From Deltaproteobacteria bacterium GWC2_65_14 (GTDB lineage: Bacteria > Desulfobacterota > Deferrimicrobia > Deferrimicrobiales > Deferrimicrobiaceae): a stretch of DNA of 32,751 bases. The translations under genes and the position numbers were made by a program. The notes under the pieces are model-generated. The model was given only the letters and a program-made list of their open reading frames with translations, had not been told where the DNA came from and made no database searches. Shown piece after piece: positions 21,740 through 32,733 of the stretch; the first letter of the stretch is position 1, and every line of letters starts with the position of its first letter. The stretch spans positions 23,040 through 55,790 of the forward strand of contig MGPV01000020.1 in the NCBI GenBank assembly GCA_001797615.1. The letters are read 5' to 3'.

Positions 21740-22546
21740 TCAGACGGCGGCGGTCATCCTCTCTCCCCGGATGACGACCCGGGAAGGGTCGATCTCCTCC
21801 CGGAGGAGCCGAAGCTCCTCCTCCGTGGGAGGCGGGATTTCCAGAACATCCGGGGAGATCCGGGGGGCGAAGCCCATGTCGCGGGTCACCTCCTCGACCG
21901 GAATCCCCCGAAGAACGCCGAGCAGGGTCATCTCGCAGGAATCCTTGTCGAAGCCGAAGAGCGCCTTGGAGGTGACGACCCGGTAGGGGCCGGTTTCCGC
22001 GGGAAGCCCCGCCTTCTCCCTGGCGCCCGGCCCGGTGAGGTACCCCGGGGAGGTCAGGAACTCCACCCGGGGAACGAACCGGCGCCCCTCGTGCTTGATG
22101 ACGATGATCGTTCTCCAGCAGTGGGAAGCGACCTGGTTTCCCCCCCCGCTTCCGGCGAACCGCCGGTGCGGTCTTTCGTAGGAGCCGCCGAGGTAGGTGG
22201 AATTGATGTTCCCGTAGGGGTCGACCTGGAGCGCGCCCAGCATCCCGTAGTCCATGTAGCCGGACGCGGAGTAGGCGAAGGCCCAGTTCATGTTCAGCCA
22301 TTGCAGCGACCGGTAGGTGTTCTGGGGCCCCCCCATCGTTCCCCGGACGAACGGAAGGATCGACTGCGGCCCGATCGCCCCGAACTCGAAGAGCTGGATC
22401 ACGTTGGGGACGTAGAGCTTCTGGGCGAGGATCGCCACGATCTGCGGGATCCCCCAGCCGACGAAGAACGACTTCCCGTCCTCGAGGAGCCTCGCCCCCT
22501 GCGCGATCATGAACTCCGTGTCGGTGAACTCTACCGTCCGCGCCAT
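21740..22546 (-). CDS. CoA-transferase subunit B (glutaconate CoA-transferase type)
   Basis: A 268-residue beta subunit of a family I CoA-transferase. It contains FFVGWGIPQIVAILAQKLYVPN, then QLFEFGAIG; the Glu54 there aligns with the catalytic glutamate of GctB. GNINSTYLGG, GSGGGNQVASHCWRTIIVIKHEGRRFV and FLTSPGYLTGPGAREKAGL follow, all typical. I chose ATG 22546 (GGAGG six bases upstream) over the adjacent GTG at 22549. Subunit A lies 172 bp upstream, an unusually long gap. It probably activates a dicarboxylic or branched acid by exchanging CoA; IpdAB-type ring-cleaving hydrolases share this fold and remain an alternative. Confidence 0.85.
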   Translation of the reverse strand: MARTVEFTDTEFMIAQGARLLEDGKSFFVGWGIPQIVAILAQKLYVPNVIQLFEFGAIGPQSILPFVRGTMGGPQNTYRSLQWLNMNWAFAYSASGYMDYGMLGALQVDPYGNINSTYLGGSYERPHRRFAGSGGGNQVASHCWRTIIVIKHEGRRFVPRVEFLTSPGYLTGPGAREKAGLPAETGPYRVVTSKALFGFDKDSCEMTLLGVLRGIPVEEVTRDMGFAPRISPDVLEIPPPTEEELRLLREEIDPSRVVIRGERMTAAV

Positions 22547-22721: not shown

Positions 22722-23690
22722 TCACCGGTACCCCTCGACGATGGTGGCGGCTTCCCGGAGCTCCCGCATCCGCGCCGCCCCGACGCGCTTGTCGAGGAAC
22801 TCGTCGTGGTCGGCGACGCTGTAGACGCACTCCTCGAGGTAGGCCTGCATCTGCTCCTCGGTGCGGATCCCGTTCAGCCGGTCGACGTGGGGGAGGTCGA
22901 TCTCGTACCGGGCCGGCATCGCCCCCGGGTAGGCGCCGAAGGGGGCGTGGACGACCGCGTCCACGAGGAAGTAGGGGATGGTGGTCCGCATCGGGTCCTT
23001 CCGGAACTCGTCGGGATCGACGATCTCCTCCGCGGAGACGATGACCCGTTTCGACGCCATTGCCGCCTCGAGGGCGAACAGGTTCGTACCGAAGATCCGG
23101 CAGTCGCCGAACCGGTCGGCCTGGTGCGCATGGAGAAAGGCGACGTCGGGGTTGAGCGCCGGAACCAGCGCGACCGGAAGCCCGGTATAGGGGTCCTCGA
23201 TGACTTTCGCGGCCGAGACGGCCAGGTTGTCCGAGCCAAGCAGGTCCCGGGTCGGAAGGAACGGCACCCCGCGTGCCCCCGCGAGGATCCGCAGGGCGAG
23301 GCCGCCGTTGGTCCAGTCGTAGACCTTGAGCCGGCCGTCGCAGACCGCCTGTCCGATGTAGCTCCCGTACCCGAGGAACCCGACGTCGATCCGGGTCGCG
23401 CATCCCGCGCCGGTCAGCAGGGCCGACTCGTGGAGGGTGAACTCCGCCCCGATCCAGAGATCCCTCTTCCGCTGCCGGATCACCTCCCGGATCAGCGACT
23501 GGGGGCCCCGGGTCAGGCTGGAGAAGTCGTACACGATGTAGTCGCCGTCCGCCACGAATTCGGAGACCGCCTCCCGGGCCGTGCGGAGCTTCGGCTCCGG
23601 CTTCCGGCTCCTTCGGTCGCGGACATGCCTGCGGAAATCGTCCGGGTGCTCGAACCGGTACTCGACCTCTCCCTCCCTCCGGATCCTCAC
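22722..23690 (-). CDS. CoA-transferase subunit A (glutaconate CoA-transferase type)
   Basis: A 322-residue alpha subunit. About 40 charged residues precede the family core. ADGDYIVYDFSSLTRGPQSLIREVIRQRKRDLW marks the start of the fold, followed by AGCATRIDVGFLGYG, GVPFLPTRDLLGSD, ALNPDVAFLHAHQADRFGDCRIFG and IVDPDEFRKDP, which match GctA-type subunits. GTG start at 23690 overlaps the meaB stop (GTGA), so it is coupled to the mutase accessory gene. The pair with subunit B would form an (alpha-beta)2 enzyme. The substrate is not readable from sequence; the operon suggests a branched or dicarboxylic acid. Confidence 0.86.
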   Translation of the reverse strand: MRIRREGEVEYRFEHPDDFRRHVRDRRSRKPEPKLRTAREAVSEFVADGDYIVYDFSSLTRGPQSLIREVIRQRKRDLWIGAEFTLHESALLTGAGCATRIDVGFLGYGSYIGQAVCDGRLKVYDWTNGGLALRILAGARGVPFLPTRDLLGSDNLAVSAAKVIEDPYTGLPVALVPALNPDVAFLHAHQADRFGDCRIFGTNLFALEAAMASKRVIVSAEEIVDPDEFRKDPMRTTIPYFLVDAVVHAPFGAYPGAMPARYEIDLPHVDRLNGIRTEEQMQAYLEECVYSVADHDEFLDKRVGAARMRELREAATIVEGYR

Positions 23691-24685
23691 TTCCCCCTCC
23701 CCCGCTTCCCCGACCCTTTCGATTCCGCCTCGAGGAAACGGTGCTCGAACCGGTGGTCGATCACCTTCTCGGCGACCGTGTAGGGATCCCGCTTCTTCTC
23801 GGCGATGTCCCGGACGAGCGACTCGAGGAGGCCGTGGCCGCGCAGATCCGCGACCGCCTTCTCGAACAGCTTCTTCCGGAGGATCTCGTGGAGCTCCACC
23901 TCCGCCTTCCCGAGACGGTAGCGGGACAGGTTCTCCTCGCGGGAGACATGGTTCCGGTGACGCTCCACCTCCTCCATGAGCGCCTCCACCCCGATCCCCT
24001 CCGGGGCGACGGTCGGCAGGACCGTCGGCCTCCAGTCCCCCTCCCCGTAGTCGTTCATGGAGACCATCGTCTCGAGCTCCCGGCGCGTCTTGTCGGCCCC
24101 GTCGCGGTCGGCCTTGTTCACGACGAAGATGTCCGCGATCTCGAGGATCCCCGCCTTCATCGCCTGGATGTCGTCGCCCAGCCCCGGGACCACCAGGACC
24201 AGGTTCGTGTGCGCCACCTTGACGATCTCGACCTCGTCCTGCCCCACCCCCACCGTCTCGATGAGGATGACCTCCTTGCCCATCGCGTCCATCACGTTCA
24301 CGATGTCGATGGTGGACTTGGAGAGGCCGCCCATGTGGCCCCGCGTGGCGAGGCTCCGGATGAAGACGTCGTCGTCGAGCGCGTGCTTCTGCATCCGGAT
24401 CCGGTCGCCCAGGATCGCGCCCCCGGTGAAGGGGCTCGTCGGGTCGATCGCGACGATCCCGATCGTCTTCCCCTGCTGCCGGAAGTGCCCGGCGAGGCAG
24501 TCGACCAGGGTCGATTTCCCTGCGCCCGGCGCCCCGGTGACTCCCAGGATGTAGGCCCTTCCCGTGTGGCGGTAGAGCCGCTTCAGGGCGCGGTGGGCGG
24601 CGGGGATCTCGTCGTCGAGATCCCGCATCAGGCGGGCGGCCGCCTGGACGTTCCCTGCGAGGATCTCCTTCACCGCGACGGTCAT
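23687..24685 (-). CDS. meaB: MeaB-type G3E GTPase, B12 mutase chaperone
   Basis: A 332-residue GTPase that gates adenosylcobalamin delivery to, and protects, B12-dependent acyl-CoA mutases. Walker A is GVTGAPGAGKST (51-58), followed by the MeaB signature IDPTSPFTGGAILGDRIRM and RSLATRGHMGGLS. The Walker B/switch region is IETVGVGQDEVE, and the base motif NKAD is at 190-193. The C-terminal dimerisation region is helical and ends in a Lys/Arg-rich tail. It is separate from the mutase rather than fused as in IcmF. ATG at 24685, seven bases after the acyl-CoA dehydrogenase. Confidence 0.95.
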   Translation of the reverse strand: MTVAVKEILAGNVQAAARLMRDLDDEIPAAHRALKRLYRHTGRAYILGVTGAPGAGKSTLVDCLAGHFRQQGKTIGIVAIDPTSPFTGGAILGDRIRMQKHALDDDVFIRSLATRGHMGGLSKSTIDIVNVMDAMGKEVILIETVGVGQDEVEIVKVAHTNLVLVVPGLGDDIQAMKAGILEIADIFVVNKADRDGADKTRRELETMVSMNDYGEGDWRPTVLPTVAPEGIGVEALMEEVERHRNHVSREENLSRYRLGKAEVELHEILRKKLFEKAVADLRGHGLLESLVRDIAEKKRDPYTVAEKVIDHRFEHRFLEAESKGSGKRGRGK

Positions 24686-24692
24686 CGGCCGA

Positions 24693-25835
24693 CTATCCCC
24701 GGATGAGGCGCCGCGCGATGATCAGCCGCTGCACCTCGGAGGTTCCCTCCCCGATCTCGCAAAGCTTCGCGTCCCGCATGTAGCGCTCGACGGGGTATTC
24801 CCGGGTGTACCCGTATCCCCCGAAGATCTGCACCGCCTTGATCGTCGCCCGCATCGCCGCCTCCGATGCGAAGAGCTTGGCCATGGCCGCCTCCTGGGCG
24901 TAAGGCTTCCCCCGGTCCTTCAGGTAGGCCGCCCGCATCGTCATCAGGTCGGCAGCCTCCAGCTCGGTGACCGCGTCCGCGACCATCCACTGGATCGCCT
25001 GGAAGCTTGCGATCGGCTGGCCGAACTGCTGCCGCTCCTTCGCGTAGGCGATCGCCTCCTCCATCGCCCCGAGCCCGATCCCCGCGGCGAGCGCGGCGAT
25101 CGAGATCCGCCCCCCCGCGAGGTTGCGCATCGTGTCCCGGAATCCGGAGTTCACCTCTCCGATCACGCTCCCGGGCCGGACCTCGAGATCCTCGAAGACC
25201 AGCTCCGCGGTGTCCGACGAGCGCATCCCCAGCTTGTGGAGCGTCTTCCCCGTGGAGAGCCCCGGGGTTCCCGCCTCCACGAGGAAGGCGGTGACCCCGT
25301 CCCGTCCCTTTCCCTTGTCGGTCACCGCCAGGATCACATAGACGCTGCCGACTTTTCCATGGGTAATGAACATCTTGCTGCCGTGGATCACCCACCGGTC
25401 GCCTTTCCACTCCGCGCGGGTCCGCATGTTCAGGGAATCGGACCCGGACCCGGGCTCGGTGAGCGCCCAGGCCCCGAGCATCCTGCCGGAAGCCAGCTCC
25501 GGGAGGTACTTCTTCCGGATCGCCTCCGAGCCGAAGGAGAGGATGTGGGCGGTGCAGAGGGAGTTGTGGGCGGCGACGGTGAGCCCCAGGGAGCCGTCCC
25601 CCTTGCCGATCTCCTCCACCGCGATCGAGTAGCTGATCGTGTCCATCCCGGACCCGCCGTACTCCTCGGGGACCATGACCCCCAGGAGCCCCAGCTCCCC
25701 GAGCCGGGCCACCGTGGCGGACGGGAACTCCCCCTCCTCGTCCCACCGGCGGGCATGGGGGCGGACCTCCTTCTCGACGAAGGATCGGACCGTCTCCCGG
25801 AGCGCCCGGTGCTCCGGTTTCAGCTCGAAATCCAT
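24693..25835 (-). CDS. acyl-CoA dehydrogenase (first of three paralogues by coordinate)
   Basis: A 380-residue flavoprotein oxidising an acyl-CoA to the 2,3-enoyl-CoA. The three family domains are visible: the N-terminal helices, the middle beta domain with [10 protein letters not shown] and KMFITHG, and the C-terminal helices with [38 protein letters not shown] and the catalytic-base motif EGTSEVQR (Glu363) follow. Isovaleryl-CoA dehydrogenases lack Glu at this site, so it is not of that type. It has IGEGTSE where its two upstream paralogues have IYEGTSE, suggesting a different substrate. The DUF35 gene ends 12 bp upstream. Confidence 0.92.
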
Positions 25836-25847
25836 GGGTCCCCTGCG

Positions 25848-26405
25848 TCAGGCCGGCACGAAGTAGACGTCGGTCGGTTTGAGTTGCGAGTTCCGGCGGA
25901 ACTTCGCCCGGATCTTCATCCCGATCCTGATGTCCTCCGGGTTCTCGACCCCGATCAGGCGGGCGAGGAGCAGCGTGTCGGCGCCGTCGAACTCCACCAG
26001 GACCAGGTGGAACGGGGTCTCCTTCAGGAATGCCTCGCTGCCGAAGAAGCAGGTGGTGAAGGTGTGGACCCTCCCCTCCTGGGGAAGCTCCACCCAGTCG
26101 GTCTCCTTGCCGCAGTTCGCGCAGTGGAGCCGGGGGGTGGCGTAGGTGTACCGGCAGCCGCCGCAGCGGGTGCCCAGGAGCCTCTTGTTCGCGAGTCCCG
26201 CGAAGAAGGGGGAGTCCTGGCCGTACGAGTGGAGGTACTCGACGGTATACGGATGCTTGATCACGATCGGGGACATCTTCTTCAGGTCGGAGAGATCCCT
26301 CGGGAAGGGGACGTTGAAGACCGTCGTTCCCGTCATCACCTCCTCGATCTTCGCGTTCCGGTCGTAGGACGGCGTCCTTCCCGGATTCTTCGTCTTCCTG
26401 GCCAT
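25848..26405 (-). CDS. DUF35 Zn-ribbon/OB-fold partner of thiolase-fold protein
   Basis: A 185-residue protein. About 65 N-terminal residues precede a rubredoxin-like zinc ribbon (C81, C84, C95, C98) and an OB-fold (GRVHTFTTCFFGSEAF, PFHLVLVEFDGADTLLLARL, MKIRAKFRR). DUF35 proteins form obligate complexes with thiolase-superfamily enzymes: archaeal acetoacetyl-CoA thiolase, benzoylsuccinyl-CoA thiolase BbsAB, steroid aldolase Ltp2-ChsH2. They place or channel the acyl-CoA. The ATG at 26405 lies two bases after the thiolase stop; the frame remains open further upstream only as a shadow of the thiolase gene. Confidence 0.88.
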   Translation of the reverse strand: MARKTKNPGRTPSYDRNAKIEEVMTGTTVFNVPFPRDLSDLKKMSPIVIKHPYTVEYLHSYGQDSPFFAGLANKRLLGTRCGGCRYTYATPRLHCANCGKETDWVELPQEGRVHTFTTCFFGSEAFLKETPFHLVLVEFDGADTLLLARLIGVENPEDIRIGMKIRAKFRRNSQLKPTDVYFVPA

Positions 26406-26407
26406 CT

Positions 26408-27694
26408 CTACCACCCCCGTTCCAGGATCGACACGGTGACGTAGGTCCCCGTGCCGGCATGGCTGTGGATCAGACCGCGATCCGCCTTTTTCAACTGCAG
26501 TTCCCCCGAGCCGAAGTGCTGCCGGATCCTCCCCTGGATCTGCCAGAAGGCGAACACGGCCTGCATGAGCCCGGTCGCCCCCACGGGGTGCCCGCAGGCG
26601 ATCAGCCCCCCGGAGGGGTTGATCGGGATCGTCCCCTTCTTCTTCAGCTTCAGGCCGTAGTCGATCTGCGGCAGGAAGGGATGCCCCTCCTCGACGAACG
26701 TTCCGCCGTCTCCGTACTTGCAGAGCGCCAGGTCCTCGTAGGTCTGGATCTCCGACGAGGTGTAGGCGTCGTGCAGCTCGATGAAGTCGATCTCCCGGAT
26801 CGGGTCCTTGATGCCGGCCATCTTGTAGGCCTGCAGCCCCGCGGATCGCCCCGCCCGGAAGGAGTGGACGCCGGGGTACTTCAGCTTCCCGTAGTCGCTC
26901 TCCTTTTCGTTGGGCGCCAGGATGACCTTCCCGTGCGGACGGTCGGCGAAGCGCATGAAATCGGTCCCCGTGCCGACCCCGCTGATCCGGACCGGCTTGT
27001 CGGTGAGCTTGAAGGCCGTCTCCTCGTCGGTCAGGATGCAGACCGCCGCCCCGTCCGACATCACGCAGATGTCCAGCAGCGTCAGCGGGTAGGCGACCAT
27101 CTGGGAGTCGCGCACATCCTGGATCGTGAGCTTCCGCCGCTTCTGGGCGTACGGGTTGTAGCAGGCGTTCCTGTGATTCTTCACCGACACCATCGCCATC
27201 TGCTCTACCGTGGTGCCGAACTCGTGCATGTGCCGGTTCACCATCATCGCGTAGTACCCCGAGTAGAAACCGCCGACGGGGTAGTCGAAGTTCGTGTCCG
27301 AGGCGTGCGCGATGAACTCGTTCCCCTTCCAGGTCTGGACCCGGGACATCGTCTCGAATCCGAAGACCACGCAGCAGTTCATCCGTCCCGAGGCCACCGC
27401 CTCCCACCCCGACTGGAAGGACAGCCCCCCGGTGGCGCCGCCGCCTTCCACCCGCTTGTTCGGCTTGGGGCAGAGACCGAGGTAGTCGGTCGCCATGATC
27501 CCCGCCATCAGCTGCCGAGTGAAGTGATCCGAGAAGTAGGAGGCGACCGAGCCGTCGATCGTCTCCCGCTTGAGCTTCGGAAGGTCGCCGTAGGCGTAGT
27601 CGAACGCCTCCTTGACCATCTTCTGGAAGGTCGCGTCCGGACGCGCCTTCTCGAACTTGCTGACTCCGCCCGATACCATGTAGACCGGTCTCAC
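26408..27694 (-). CDS. thiolase-superfamily protein lacking the nucleophilic Cys
   Basis: A 428-residue thiolase-fold protein. It keeps the second-half motifs IELHDAYTSSEI (H308) and NPSGGLIACGHPVGATG (H369), and ends with HSHAGTGTY instead of the CxG motif. The nucleophile region reads RVEGGGATGG where the family has VEAACASG, so Gly86 replaces the acyl-accepting Cys. It therefore probably does not perform ordinary thiolysis. A Claisen-independent retro-aldol, as in the DUF35-partnered aldolase Ltp2, is one candidate, although Ltp2 has also lost the histidines kept here. GTG start at 27694. The DUF35 partner follows at two bases. Confidence 0.82.
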   Translation of the reverse strand: MRPVYMVSGGVSKFEKARPDATFQKMVKEAFDYAYGDLPKLKRETIDGSVASYFSDHFTRQLMAGIMATDYLGLCPKPNKRVEGGGATGGLSFQSGWEAVASGRMNCCVVFGFETMSRVQTWKGNEFIAHASDTNFDYPVGGFYSGYYAMMVNRHMHEFGTTVEQMAMVSVKNHRNACYNPYAQKRRKLTIQDVRDSQMVAYPLTLLDICVMSDGAAVCILTDEETAFKLTDKPVRISGVGTGTDFMRFADRPHGKVILAPNEKESDYGKLKYPGVHSFRAGRSAGLQAYKMAGIKDPIREIDFIELHDAYTSSEIQTYEDLALCKYGDGGTFVEEGHPFLPQIDYGLKLKKKGTIPINPSGGLIACGHPVGATGLMQAVFAFWQIQGRIRQHFGSGELQLKKADRGLIHSHAGTGTYVTVSILERGW

Positions 27695-27741: not shown

Positions 27742-28185
27742 TCAGGCCCTCGGCCGGACCTTGTCGTTTACGTACGAAATGATCTCCGACAGGGGGGTCC
27801 CCGGCGTGAACACCCGGTCCACCCCCTTCTTCCGCAGACCCGGGATGTCGTCGTCGGGGATGATCCCTCCGCCGAAGACCACGACGTTTCTCATCTTCTT
27901 TTCCCGGAGCAGCTCCACCACCTTCGGGAAGAGGTAGTTGTGGGCACCGGAAAGGATCGACAGCCCGATCGCATCCACATCCTCCTGCACGGCGGCGTTC
28001 ACGATCATCTCCGGCGTCTGGTGGAGTCCCGTGTAGATCACCTCGAACCCGGCGTCGCGCAGCGCCCGTGCGATGATCTTCGCCCCCCGGTCGTGACCGT
28101 CCAGCCCCGGCTTTCCGACCAGGATCCGCACCTTCCGTTTCGGTTTTCCGCTTCCCCTCTTCGTCCGCGTGAGAGCGCTCGCCAT
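27742..28185 (-). CDS. B12-binding small subunit of acyl-CoA mutase
   Basis: A 147-residue cobalamin-binding domain. It has [15 protein letters not shown] with DxHxxG (D29, H31, G34), whose His ligates cobalt. The [14 protein letters not shown] loop and [13 protein letters not shown] at the nucleotide tail follow, then the [11 protein letters not shown] helix. It pairs with the large subunit encoded 20 bp upstream to make a split mutase, as in isobutyryl- and 2-hydroxyisobutyryl-CoA mutases and many archaeal and deltaproteobacterial methylmalonyl-CoA mutases. ATG at 28185 with AGGGGGG five bases upstream. A basic 18-residue N-terminal tail precedes the domain. Confidence 0.93.
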
Positions 28186-28205: not shown

Positions 28206-29885
28206 TCAGAACATCGCCGGGTCGGAATAGGTCCCCAGGGTCTCCCGGAACGCGTCGCAGATCTCCCCCAGGGTCACGTATTCCCGCACGGCTTCCAGAA
28301 TCACCGGCATCAGGTTCTCCGTGGAGCGGGATGCGTCCTTCAGCCGATCCAGGCACTGTCCGGCACGCTTCCCGTTTCGTTTCCTTCGGACCTCCCGCGT
28401 GCGGGCCACCTGCTTCCGTTCGACCTCCGGGTCGATCTTGAGCAGGGGGATGGGAGTCTCTCCTTCCATCGTGTAGCAGTTGACCCCCACGACCTTCTTC
28501 TCCCCCTTTTCCAGGAGCCGCTGGTAGTGGTAGGAGGCGTCGATGATCTCCCGCTGGGGGTACCCCTTCTTGACCGCCTCGACCATCCCCCCGAGATCGT
28601 CGATCTTTTGGATGTAGGCCATCGCTTTCTCTTCCATCCCGTTCGTGAGCCTCTCGACCAGGAAGGAGCCCCCGAGGGGGTCGATCGCGTTCGCCACCCC
28701 GGACTCCTCGGCCAGGATCTGCTGGGTCCGCAGGGCGATCGTCACCGCCTGCTCCGACGGAAGCGCCAGCGTCTCGTCCATCGAGTTCGTGTGGAGCGAC
28801 TGGGTCCCTCCGAGCACGCCCATCAGCCCCTGCAGCGCAACCCGGACGACGTTGTTGAAGGGCTGCTGGGCGGTCAGCGTCACCCCGGCGGTCTGGGTGT
28901 GGAACCTGAGCTTCCAGGAGTTCTCGTCCTTCGCCCGGAACCGCTCCCGCATGATCCTCGCCCACATCCGGCGCGCCGCGCGGTACTTCGCGATCTCCTC
29001 GAAGAAGTCCATGTGGGCGTTGAAGAAATAGGAAAGCCGGGGAGCGAACTTGTCCACGGGGATTCCGGCTTCGATCCCCGCCTGCACGTAGGCGATCCCG
29101 TCGGCGATCGTGAAGGCCAGCTCCTGGACGGCGGTGGATCCCGCCTCGCGGATGTGGTAGCCGCTGATGCTGATGGTGTTCCAGCGGGGGACGTGATCGG
29201 CGCAGTAGGCCATGATGTCGGTGATGATCCGCATCGAGGGATCGGGGGGGAAGATCCAGGAGTGCTGGGCGATATACTCCTTCAGGATGTCGTTCTGGAT
29301 CGTCCCGCCGATCTTCTTGGGGGAGACCCCCTGCTTCTCGGCCACCGCGATGTACATCGCCAGGAGGATCGCGGCGGGGGCGTTGATCGTCATCGAGGTG
29401 GTGACCCGGTCCAGCGGGATCCGGTGGAAGAGGATCTCCATGTCCTTCAGGGAATCGACCGCCACGCCGCAGACGCCGACCTCTCCGCGGGCCCGCGGAT
29501 GATCCGAGTCGTACCCCATCAGCGTGGGGAAGTGGAAGGCGGTGGAGAGCCCGGTCTGCCCTTCCTTCAGAAGGTAGCGGAATCTCGCGTTGGTGTCCTC
29601 GGCGGATCCGTAGCCTGCGAACTGCCGCATGGTCCAGAGGCGCCCGCGGTACATGGAGGGCTGGACCCCCCGGGTGTACGGGTACTCCCCGGGGAAGGAC
29701 AGATCCTTCAGGTAGTCGAAGGTCCCGAGGTCGTCCGGGCCGTACAGCGGTGCGATCTCCTCGTCGGAGACGGTGGAAAATCTCGAAAGGCGCTCCGGGG
29801 ATTTTCCCAGAACGGGGGAGAGCGTCTCCTTCTCCCACCGCTTCCGCCGCTGTGATGCGCTCCCCATCTTCTTCCGGTCGTACAC
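28206..29885 (-). CDS. methylmalonyl-CoA mutase family large subunit, isobutyryl-CoA mutase-type active site
   Basis: A 559-residue substrate-binding TIM-barrel subunit of an adenosylcobalamin mutase. The numbering coincides with P. shermanii methylmalonyl-CoA mutase: T85, R87, S114, S164, T166, T195, Q197, N236, Y243, H244, R283, S285 and F287 are all conserved. Substrate-selecting Tyr89 and Arg207 are instead Phe89 (TMRQFAGYG) and Gln207 (EYIAQHSW), the isobutyryl-CoA mutase pair. FDLP is changed to FHFP (H118). GTG start at 29885, eight bases after GGAGG. The small subunit, MeaB and adenosyltransferase are in the same operon. No epimerase is nearby. Confidence 0.93.
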
Positions 29886-29898
29886 GGCATCCCCCTCC

Positions 29899-30438
29899 TT
29901 ATCGCTCCACCCCTACGCGGGCGTCGACTCCCTTCGCGTAGTAGTGCTTCACTTCCCGCATCTCCGTGACCAGGTCGGCCAGCTCCAGGAACTCGGGGGG
30001 CGCCCCCCTTCCGGTCAGCAGGATCTCCATCCCTTCCGGCTTCCTCCGCAGCAGGTCGACGACCTCCCCGACGGGAAGGAGCCCGAAATCGACCGCGCAG
30101 TTGATCTCGTCGAGGACCACGATGTCGGCGCGCTTCCCGAGGATCGCCTGCCTGGCGAGCTCCCATCCCTCCCGGGCCAGGCGGACATCCTCCGGGTCCG
30201 GGTTTCCGCGGTTGACGAAGGTGTCCCTCCCCGCCTGGTGGATCTCGACGTAGGGGGAAAGCATCTCCACCCCTTTGAGCTCTCCGTAGTCGATCCACCC
30301 TTTCATGAACTGGATGATGACGGTCCTGAGGCCGTGCCCGGCGGCCCTCAGGGAGAGCCCCAGCGCGGCGGTCGTCTTCCCCTTGCCGTTCCCGGTGTAG
30401 ACCTGGATGTACCCTTTGCCGATGGCGCCCGCGGTCAT
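29899..30438 (-). CDS. CobO/BtuR-type corrinoid adenosyltransferase
   Basis: A 179-residue ATP:cob(I)alamin adenosyltransferase making the adenosylcobalamin cofactor. The P-loop is [14 protein letters not shown] (16-23), followed by [11 protein letters not shown], then [18 protein letters not shown] and [22 protein letters not shown], all standard for the CobA/BtuR family. It lies 13 bp before the mutase gene and its ATG overlaps the upstream acyl-CoA dehydrogenase stop (ATGA). With no cobalamin biosynthesis genes nearby, it probably supplies or regenerates cofactor for this mutase. Confidence 0.94.
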
Positions 30439-31583
30439 GCGCCGTGTCTCCCCAGCAGGTCCCGCGCGACGACGATCCGCTGGATCTCGGAGGTCCCCTC
30501 GTAGATGGTAGCCACCTTGATGTCCCGCAGGTGACGCTCCAACGGGTAATCCCGGATATACCCGTATCCGCCCAGGATCTGGACCGCCTTGTGGCATGCC
30601 CGGTTCCCCGCCTCCGTGGCGAAGACCTTCGCCATCGAGGCCTCCCGGCCGAACGGCTGCCCCCGCTCCTTCCTGTAGGCCGCACGGCAGATCAACAGCC
30701 ACGAGGCGTCGACCTCCGTGGCGGAATCGGCGAGCATGAACTGGATCGCCTGGAACTCCGAGATCGGCTGCCCGAACTGCTTCCGCTCCTTCGCATAGGC
30801 CGCCGCCGAATCGAGCGCGGCGCGGGCGATTCCGACGGCCTGGGCGGCGATCCCGATCCGGCCGCCGTCGAGCGCGCTCATCGCGATCCGGAACCCCTCC
30901 CCCGGGCTTCCCAGCATGGCCTTGTCCGGCACCCGGCAATCCTCCAGGGCAAGCGACACGGTGGCGGAGCCTTTCAGCCCCATCTTCCGCTCCGGCTTGC
31001 CGACGGTCAGCCCCTTCGCTCCCCCCTCCACGAGGAAGGCGCTGATCTCCTTCCGGTCCCCCTTCCCGGTCACCGCCATGACGATCGTCACGGCCGCCCG
31101 GTCCCCGTTCGTGATGAAGACCTTGTTCCCGTTCAGCACGAAGGAGTCTCCGTCCCGCACCGCCGTCGTGGAGATCGCCTGCGCGTCGGACCCGGCCTCC
31201 GGCTCGGTCAGCGCGAAGGCGCCGATTCCGTCCGTCGCGGAGGCAAGCGCCGGGAGATATCGATTCCGCTGCTCCTCGTTCCCGAACCGCCAGATCGTCT
31301 CCCCCACCATGCTGCTGACCGCCAGGATGACCGCCGTGGAGGCGCAGCCGGAGGCGATCTCCGACAGCGCCAGGCTGTAGGCCACGGCGCCGGTCTCCGA
31401 TCCACCGTACTCCGCGGGGAAGAGCATCCCCATCAGCCCGAGCTCGGCCAGCTTCCGGATGTTCTCTTCCGGGAACCGCGCCGACTCGTCGACTTCCGCC
31501 GCCCCGGGGGCGAACTCCTTCCGGGCGAGGGACCGGACCATTTCCCGGATCTGGGACTGCTCTTCCGTCAGGGTGAAGTCCAC
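30435..31583 (-). CDS. acyl-CoA dehydrogenase (second paralogue)
   Basis: 382 residues with the full three-domain fold: EYGGSETGAVAYSLALSEIA, FALTEPEAGSDA, NKVFITNGD, and KERKQFGQPISEFQAIQFML. GGYGYIRDYPLERHLRDIK follows, with the catalytic Glu362 in IYEGTSEIQR, the short-chain/butyryl-type arrangement. It is most similar by eye to the gene just upstream (both share GGRIGIAAQAVGIAR), suggesting tandem duplication. Residues such as RKERGQPFGREASM differ from it, so substrates may have diverged. Seven bases separate it from that paralogue, and the stop overlaps the adenosyltransferase start. Confidence 0.92.
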   Translation of the reverse strand: MDFTLTEEQSQIREMVRSLARKEFAPGAAEVDESARFPEENIRKLAELGLMGMLFPAEYGGSETGAVAYSLALSEIASGCASTAVILAVSSMVGETIWRFGNEEQRNRYLPALASATDGIGAFALTEPEAGSDAQAISTTAVRDGDSFVLNGNKVFITNGDRAAVTIVMAVTGKGDRKEISAFLVEGGAKGLTVGKPERKMGLKGSATVSLALEDCRVPDKAMLGSPGEGFRIAMSALDGGRIGIAAQAVGIARAALDSAAAYAKERKQFGQPISEFQAIQFMLADSATEVDASWLLICRAAYRKERGQPFGREASMAKVFATEAGNRACHKAVQILGGYGYIRDYPLERHLRDIKVATIYEGTSEIQRIVVARDLLGRHGA

Positions 31584-31590
31584 GGCATCC

Positions 31591-32733
31591 TCAGTCCTTC
31601 AGCAGCGCGGAGGCGATCACCATCCGCTGCACCTCGGAGGTCCCCTCGTAGATCTCGGTGATCTTCGCGTCCCGGAAGTGCCTCTCCGCGGGGTATTCCT
31701 TGATGTACCCGTACCCCCCGTGGATCTGGATCCCCTTGACGCCCGCGCGCATGGCCGTCTCGGAGGCGTAGAGCTTCGCCATGGAGGACTCCTTCGAATG
31801 GCGGGCCTTCCGGTCCTTGAGCCACGCGGCGCGGTAGATCAGCATCCTCGCCGCCTCGATCTCGGTGGCCATGTCGGCGAGCATCCACTGGATCGCCTGG
31901 AAGTTCGCGATCGGCTGTCCGAACTGCTTCCGCTCCTTTGCGTAGGCGAGCGCATCCTCCAGGGAAGCGCGGGCGATCCCGACCGCCTGGGCGGCGATCC
32001 CGATCCGCCCTCCGTCCAGGGTGTGCATGGCGACCTTGAACCCGTCCCCATCCTGCCCCAGCCGGTTCTCCACCGGGATCTTCACGTCCTCGAGGATGAT
32101 CGAGGCGGTAGCCGATGCGTTAATTCCCATTTTTTTCTCATTTTTTCCAACGGTTACACCCTCGTATTTCATGTCCAGGATGAAGGCTGTGATCCCTTTG
32201 TGTTTCTTCTCCCGGTCGGTCATCGCGAAGAGGACGCAGCTGTCGGCCTGGGGGGCGTTCGTGATGAAGTTCTTGGTTCCGTTCACCACGTAGTGCTCGC
32301 CGTTGCGGACGGCGGTCGTCTTCTGGGACCCGGCGTCGGACCCGGCGCCGGGCTCCGTCAGGCCGAAGCATCCCAGCTTCTTCCCCGAGGCAAGAGGTGT
32401 GAGGTACTTCTCCTTCTGCTCCTCGGTGCCGAACCTGAGGATCGGGTCGCAGGCCAGGGAGTTGTTCACCGACAGGATCACGCCGGTCGAGGCGCAGGCT
32501 CTCGAGATCTCCTCCATCGCGATGGCGTAGCAGATATTGTCCATCCCCGCGCCGCCGTACTCCTCCGGCACGGCGACCCCCATCAGCCCGAGCTCCGCCA
32601 TCTGGCGGACAAGCTCCTCGGGGTAGCGGCCGGTCTCGTCGAGTTCGGCGGCCTTCGGCAGGACCTCCTTCTGCGCGAAGGTCCGCGCCATGTCCTGGAT
32701 CATCTGCTGTTCTTCGGTCAGGTCGAAGACCAT
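31591..32733 (-). CDS. acyl-CoA dehydrogenase (third paralogue, first transcribed in window)
   Basis: 380 residues, complete. It shows EYGGAGMDNICYAIAMEEIS, FGLTEPGAGSDAGS, NGTKNFITNAP, KERKQFGQPIANFQAIQWML, and GGYGYIKEYPAERHFRDAK. The catalytic Glu363 lies in [10 protein letters not shown]; this pattern is typical of short-chain acyl-CoA (butyryl-CoA) dehydrogenases. ATG at 32733 follows ATGGGGG; only 18 bases remain to the window edge, so promoter and any earlier operon genes are outside. A short AT-rich stretch at 32110-32160 uses AAA-rich codons (KKM near residue 200). No electron-transfer flavoprotein genes are in view. Confidence 0.93.
   Translation of the reverse strand: MVFDLTEEQQMIQDMARTFAQKEVLPKAAELDETGRYPEELVRQMAELGLMGVAVPEEYGGAGMDNICYAIAMEEISRACASTGVILSVNNSLACDPILRFGTEEQKEKYLTPLASGKKLGCFGLTEPGAGSDAGSQKTTAVRNGEHYVVNGTKNFITNAPQADSCVLFAMTDREKKHKGITAFILDMKYEGVTVGKNEKKMGINASATASIILEDVKIPVENRLGQDGDGFKVAMHTLDGGRIGIAAQAVGIARASLEDALAYAKERKQFGQPIANFQAIQWMLADMATEIEAARMLIYRAAWLKDRKARHSKESSMAKLYASETAMRAGVKGIQIHGGYGYIKEYPAERHFRDAKITEIYEGTSEVQRMVIASALLKD

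Follow-up and report, generated by a model that had tools for sequence, protein, structure and literature searches.

The stretch of DNA analysed here (the window; 32,751 nucleotides from Deltaproteobacteria bacterium GWC2_65_14) encodes the two subunits of a B12-dependent acyl-CoA mutase, which raises the question of which acyl-CoA this enzyme rearranges. The gene for the large subunit has the sequence AAGGAGG just 5' of its GTG start, and in its translated ORF TMRQF forms residues 85-89 and EYIAQHSW residues 203-210, so that the initial annotation had correctly read Phe89 and Gln207. HMMER alignments of the protein to the methylmalonyl-CoA mutases (MCMs) of P. shermanii (1req, 5req) and human and to 4r3u were free of gaps from about residue 66 to 311. 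Because of this, positions 89 and 207 correspond to Tyr89 and Arg207 of MCM, and T85, R87, S114, Q197, Y243, H244 and R283 pair with identical residues in the references, in agreement with the MCM register claimed earlier. The AlphaFold model has the expected barrel (pLDDT 85, pTM 0.89), and its best PDB matches in Foldseek are 4r3u (TM 0.93) and MCMs (TM 0.84-0.90). With the ungapped alignments and a model closest to these structures, the fold and register of the window mutase are not in doubt.

Profile searches gave the enzyme a different name. It matched PF01642 with 750 bits, and both PF01642 and TIGR00641, generic models named methylmalonyl-CoA mutase, were above cut-off, consistent with the MCM label that the initial annotation had expected from automatic pipelines. 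The MCM equivalog PRK09426 was not passed (656 bits vs cut-off 876), a model that discriminates weakly, as a paralogue with Tyr89/Arg207 (Y/R) in the same genome also falls below its cut-off (667). The model for fused IcmF, NF045497, was not passed either (356 bits vs cut-off 1500).

Homologues were gathered from whole genomes, named genome contigs and plasmids, and their states were read on one alignment with solved-structure references. Alongside this alignment, we take Tyr/Arg to denote MCM, Phe/Gln (F/Q) isobutyryl-CoA mutase and Ile/Gln (I/Q) 2-hydroxyisobutyryl-CoA mutase (HCM). Among the 135 aligned sequences, 91 are F/Q and 35 Y/R, and chance or sequence error was rejected as the source of Phe89/Gln207 on account of this frequency. 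The MCMs of human, P. shermanii, Ilyobacter and Sinorhizobium are Y/R, with epimerase and sodium-pump decarboxylase genes also present at the Ilyobacter locus; the solved HCM 4r3u and one Agrobacterium plasmid protein carry I/Q together with Asp116; F/Q is also the state of the fused IcmF proteins, one of which exceeds the cut-off of the curated IcmF model (1873 vs 1500). In a tree of 127 sequences (quick search, SH-aLRT support only) in which fused IcmF and HCM were the only characterised non-MCM anchors, the split F/Q mutases formed a single clade (90 rows, SH-aLRT 99) sister to the split Y/R MCMs, with IcmF and HCM falling outside it. The window mutase belongs to a clade of 16 rows from the same family, with a support of 100, and the nearest named relative of this lineage is Deltaproteobacteria bacterium CSP1-8. 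The structure-referenced alignment and the tree, which the initial annotation had proposed as a check, thus keep Phe89/Gln207 in register and group the window mutase with the F/Q clade, apart from the Y/R MCMs.

The closest solved structure, 4r3u, is that of HcmA, which shares 48% identity, Gln207 and split subunits with the window mutase and could suggest a 2-hydroxyisobutyryl-CoA mutase. However, HcmA has Ile89 and Asp116 in place of Phe89 and Ala116, and HCM and its plasmid homologue occupy a branch of their own, which leaves this activity a practically negligible probability. IcmF (PDB 4xc6, 5cjt-5cjw) resembles the window mutase in Phe/Gln at both selectivity positions and in Ala116, but is a single fusion of about 1100 aa comprising a B12 domain, a GTPase and a mutase, shows 34-36% identity by structure alignment and has Asn at position 283. 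Split MCMs (Ilyobacter polytropus and the copy in the same genome) have the same fold and about 61-64% identity to the window mutase, but differ in Tyr89/Arg207 and in their carboxylase neighbours.

The genome encodes exactly two mutase large subunits. The second, on contig 23, reads TMRQY...LKEYIARGTYI, i.e. Tyr89/Arg207, and is 64% identical to the window protein. The ORFs upstream of it were annotated by eye as carboxyltransferase, biotin carboxylase and biotin carrier genes. The contig 23 copy is therefore likely to be the real MCM of this genome, which leaves the window copy free for another job.

We compared gene neighbourhoods at loci with at least 8 kb of sequence (57 F/Q and 14 Y/R). 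A short-chain acyl-CoA dehydrogenase (SCAD) gene lay near the mutase at 36/57 F/Q loci and 0/14 Y/R loci (Fisher 1e-5), whereas the methylmalonyl-CoA epimerase gene mce was found near 0/57 F/Q and 11/14 Y/R mutases (Fisher 1e-10), both P values ignoring kinship although each type is nearly one clade. Likewise, 3-hydroxybutyryl-CoA dehydrogenase (HBD) and CobA genes adjoined 19/57 and 27/57 F/Q mutases, respectively, and neither was near any of the 14 Y/R mutases, while the carboxylase beta subunit showed the opposite distribution (3/57 vs 12/14). The case that the residues at 89 and 207 mark different reactions rests most strongly on this contrast. That the window enzyme is an MCM despite its residues, as the Pfam and TIGR names and its identity to the Y/R paralogue might imply, is highly improbable: it has neither Tyr89 nor Arg207, a separate Y/R copy adjoins the carboxylase genes, and no epimerase lies near any tested F/Q gene. 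The residues, tree, neighbourhood and separate Tyr/Arg MCM hence bear out the initial claim that the enzyme is not an MCM. On two Chloroflexota contigs (L058, L059), a Y/R and an F/Q large-subunit gene flank CobA at a distance of 3-4 kb from each other.

Table 1 Genes of the mutase operon in the window, listed in operon order.
Feature	Position	Strand	Observations
Acyl-CoA dehydrogenase (ACAD)	31591..32733	(-)	nearest butyryl-/short-chain ACADs; PDB sequence search, best 5ol2_C, 1jqi SCAD; final gene before scaffold gap
Second ACAD, short-chain type	30435..31583	(-)	4-base overlap with adenosyltransferase gene
CobA-type cob(I)alamin adenosyltransferase	29899..30438	(-)	NF004637 and TIGR00708 over cut-off; predicted to supply AdoCbl
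Acyl-CoA mutase large subunit (isobutyryl-CoA mutase type)	28206..29885	(-)	559 aa; GTG start; F89, A116, H118, Q207
B12-binding small subunit	27742..28185	(-)	147 aa; TIGR00640 172 bits vs cut-off 57; PF02310; DGHDRG, SIL, GGG motifs
SCP2-type thiolase homologue	26408..27694	(-)	nucleophilic Cys replaced by Gly (EGGGATGG)
DUF35/ChsH2-like partner of thiolase homologue	25848..26405	(-)	PF01796 and PF12172 over cut-off
Third ACAD	24693..25835	(-)	
MeaB, mutase-associated GTPase chaperone	23687..24685	(-)	TIGR00750 321 bits vs cut-off 241
Class I CoA-transferase subunit A (glutaconate CoA-transferase-like)	22722..23690	(-)	PF01144; 1poi_A E=2.8e-31
Class I CoA-transferase subunit B	21740..22546	(-)	PF01144

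The operon (Table 1) is compact: between the first ACAD and CoA-transferase subunit A the intergenic distances are -4 to 47 bases, and subunit B follows after a further 172 bases. The small subunit is encoded separately and has the DxHxxG motif as GLDGHDRG. An Rfam search of the window for a cobalamin riboswitch found none, only two tRNAs. Between the start of the first ACAD and the window edge upstream of it lie 18 bases; there the sequence runs into 266 Ns representing a scaffold gap (L150 792-1057). In the relatives' loci L035, L037 and L039, genes for MerR, ACAT, HBD and a short-chain enoyl-CoA hydratase (crotonase) precede the first ACAD, and L040 has the same 5' set without a MerR match, so that ACAT-HBD-crotonase-ACAD-ACAD-CobA-mutase stand in one run in all four. 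By their annotations, the genes of the relatives' operons make up a predicted complete route from butyryl-CoA to acetyl-CoA. Orthologues of the relatives' HBD and crotonase were sought elsewhere in the genome and not found, the best candidates being only 44% and 40% identical, respectively. These upstream oxidation genes may lie within the 266-N gap or be absent from the genome. The butyryl-CoA oxidation gene copies on contig 40 were rejected as the missing operon genes, being non-orthologous and located within an aromatic-acid-like cluster. That cluster (L149 1-12000) encodes a phenylacetate-CoA-ligase-like protein, a 3-hydroxyacyl-CoA dehydrogenase, crotonases, a benzoyl-CoA-reductase-like subunit with its activator and an indolepyruvate-oxidoreductase-like pair, and reads as anaerobic aromatic-acid degradation. 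Past the gap, the opposite strand carries genes for what look like a multihaem c-type cytochrome and an outer-membrane barrel of the MtrB/PioB type, which suggests extracellular electron transfer in an apparently metal-respiring bacterium.

Taken together, we consider it probable (about 0.82) that the two mutase genes encode an AdoCbl-dependent isobutyryl-CoA mutase within an isobutyrate-oxidising operon. We infer the substrate and direction of the enzyme from the observed residues, fold, tree position, operon content and neighbourhood contrast. In the proposed pathway, the CoA-transferase would probably activate isobutyrate, and the CobA-type adenosyltransferase and MeaB would make and load the cofactor. 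The large subunit would bind the acyl-CoA and the small subunit would carry B12. According to the chemistry of the family, homolysis of the Co-C bond of AdoCbl would yield a deoxyadenosyl radical that abstracts hydrogen from a methyl group, after which the CoA-carbonyl group would migrate to the adjacent carbon, so that isobutyryl-CoA and n-butyryl-CoA are interconverted, and AdoCbl would be re-formed. The Tyr/Arg pair of MCM holds the substrate carboxylate; from what is known of the family, Phe89 and Gln207 would instead form an uncharged pocket into which the methyl groups of isobutyryl-CoA fit. The ACADs, together with the thiolase, HBD and crotonase whose genes immediately precede them in relatives, would then convert butyryl-CoA to acetyl-CoA. 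A CoA-transferase adjoining a butyryl/isobutyryl mutase also figures in the discussion of how clostridia isomerise n- and isobutyrate (PMC7764203).

The same uncharged pocket could accommodate a C5 substrate, in which case the enzyme would be a pivalyl-CoA/isovaleryl-CoA mutase and the operon would degrade isovaleryl-CoA. Indeed, IcmF, with which the window mutase has the F/Q pair in common, has been crystallised with isovaleryl-, pivalyl-, isobutyryl- and n-butyryl-CoA (PDB titles) and interconverts isovaleryl- and pivalyl-CoA (PMC10481361). However, the conserved neighbours are genes of butyryl-CoA oxidation, and none of the annotated operon genes was recognised as belonging to the leucine branch (biotin-dependent methylcrotonyl-CoA carboxylase, HMG-CoA lyase), making a C5 substrate quite improbable. 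The uncharged branched acyl-CoA proposed in the initial annotation is thus supported, and because the operon content is that of butyryl-CoA oxidation, the prediction narrows to isobutyryl-/n-butyryl-CoA over pivalyl-CoA.

Two features set the window mutase and its operon apart. The first is His118, at a position that follows barrel strand 2 at the active-site end of the AlphaFold model; almost all other homologues have Asp there. Not only the clade of the window mutase but also several further F/Q lineages carry His118 (L021, L024, L025, L030, L050, L056, L060, L061, L079). On the starred branches of the tree, the F/Q-His118 label must have changed no fewer than four times, although F/R and incomplete rows may account for one of these changes. 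Arg283 is replaced by Met in L030, L060 and L061 and by His in L050 and L079. The second is the thiolase homologue, whose nucleophilic Cys is replaced by Gly; all close relatives checked share this replacement. Downstream of F/Q mutases elsewhere, a thiolase homologue is also present in L042, where it was seen alone, and a thiolase homologue with DUF35 in L082. The Cys-less thiolase and its DUF35 partner presumably resemble the Ltp2-ChsH2 aldolase; together with the third dehydrogenase, they fit no clear role in an isobutyrate pathway.

These features admit two further readings. The mutase might act on another alpha-methyl-branched acyl-CoA (2-methylbutyryl-CoA or longer), in which case both His118 and the thiolase/DUF35 pair would be adaptations; the repeated origin of His118 inside the F/Q clade and the presence of three ACADs and an additional thiolase homologue in the operon accord with this idea. 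Alternatively, Asp118->His might mark an F/Q sub-family with a shifted substrate (e.g. 2-methylbutyryl- or pivalyl-CoA), with the thiolase/DUF35 pair processing the product as an aldolase of the Ltp2-ChsH2 kind; the operon would then be a new branched-acid pathway rather than one for isobutyrate oxidation. However, His118 and the thiolase module are uncoupled, as L042 and L082 combine the thiolase homologue with Asp118 and L038 and L040 have His118 without it, and a link between the two was rejected. Moreover, the His118 mutases of L050 and L079 adjoin the same HBD and ACAD genes as Asp118 mutases, and a search for positions covarying with His118 found none that changes together with it. Since no position covaries and the carriers keep the same neighbours, a substrate shift through His118 seems possible but is not favoured. 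We therefore regard the sub-family with its own branched-acid pathway as unlikely and an adaptation to other alpha-methyl-branched substrates as distinctly unlikely, and retain isobutyryl-CoA as the predicted substrate.

A further variant was found at L040 (7604-9280; genome G005, the same genome as L008), whose mutase, closely related to that of the window, combines Phe89 with Arg207, the only such case in a pattern scan of 297 genomes of the phylum. Its operon is without the genes for the thiolase, DUF35, third dehydrogenase and CoA-transferase. This hybrid may be an assembly error, since a single base change would suffice to produce it. A second candidate from the scan, in G227, was rejected because it reads like a chance match.

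The initial annotation overrated how surprising an F/Q signature is in such a mutase: among anaerobes, split mutases with Phe/Gln occur commonly, and a cluster of this kind has already been published. In the isobutyrate-degrading Syntrophothermus lipocalidus, the putative isobutyryl-CoA mutase cluster Slip_0757-0760 comprises the N and C parts of the mutase, an adenosyltransferase and MeaB, and isomerisation of isobutyrate to butyrate by a split mutase before beta-oxidation has been proposed for this species and its relatives (PMC5017805). Similar genes have also been noted in Syntrophomonas BUT1 (PMC6687939), and IcmF-type mutases are known to have been misannotated as methylmalonyl-CoA mutase (PMC7764203). 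Set against the published description, in which the beta-oxidation genes of S. lipocalidus are listed as separate clusters, the window differs in having ACADs in the mutase operon, and its relatives in having the whole butyryl-CoA oxidation set there. The two-subunit architecture is also that of IcmA/IcmB from Streptomyces cinnamonensis, which presumably has the Phe/Gln pair too; the two systems are likened by description, and that of S. cinnamonensis has another physiological setting (polyketide precursors). IcmA/IcmB is a split isobutyryl-CoA mutase, EC 5.4.99.13 (PMC2847961). The window gene is therefore of a type already known and widespread in anaerobes, and what is new here is His118 in place of a near-invariant Asp, the one Phe/Arg hybrid and the operon's thiolase/DUF35 pair without the nucleophilic Cys.

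The window enzyme very probably lets this uncultured bacterium turn isobutyrate into butyrate and oxidise it. In many uncultured anaerobes, two residues and a clean neighbourhood contrast separate isobutyryl- from methylmalonyl-type split mutases, whereas generic annotations do not. Metabolic reconstructions change accordingly, with oxidation of isobutyrate (from valine breakdown) via butyrate predicted instead of a second propionate pathway. In addition, what determines substrate choice among these enzymes could be tested on two naturally occurring variants, the His118 switch and the Phe/Arg hybrid.
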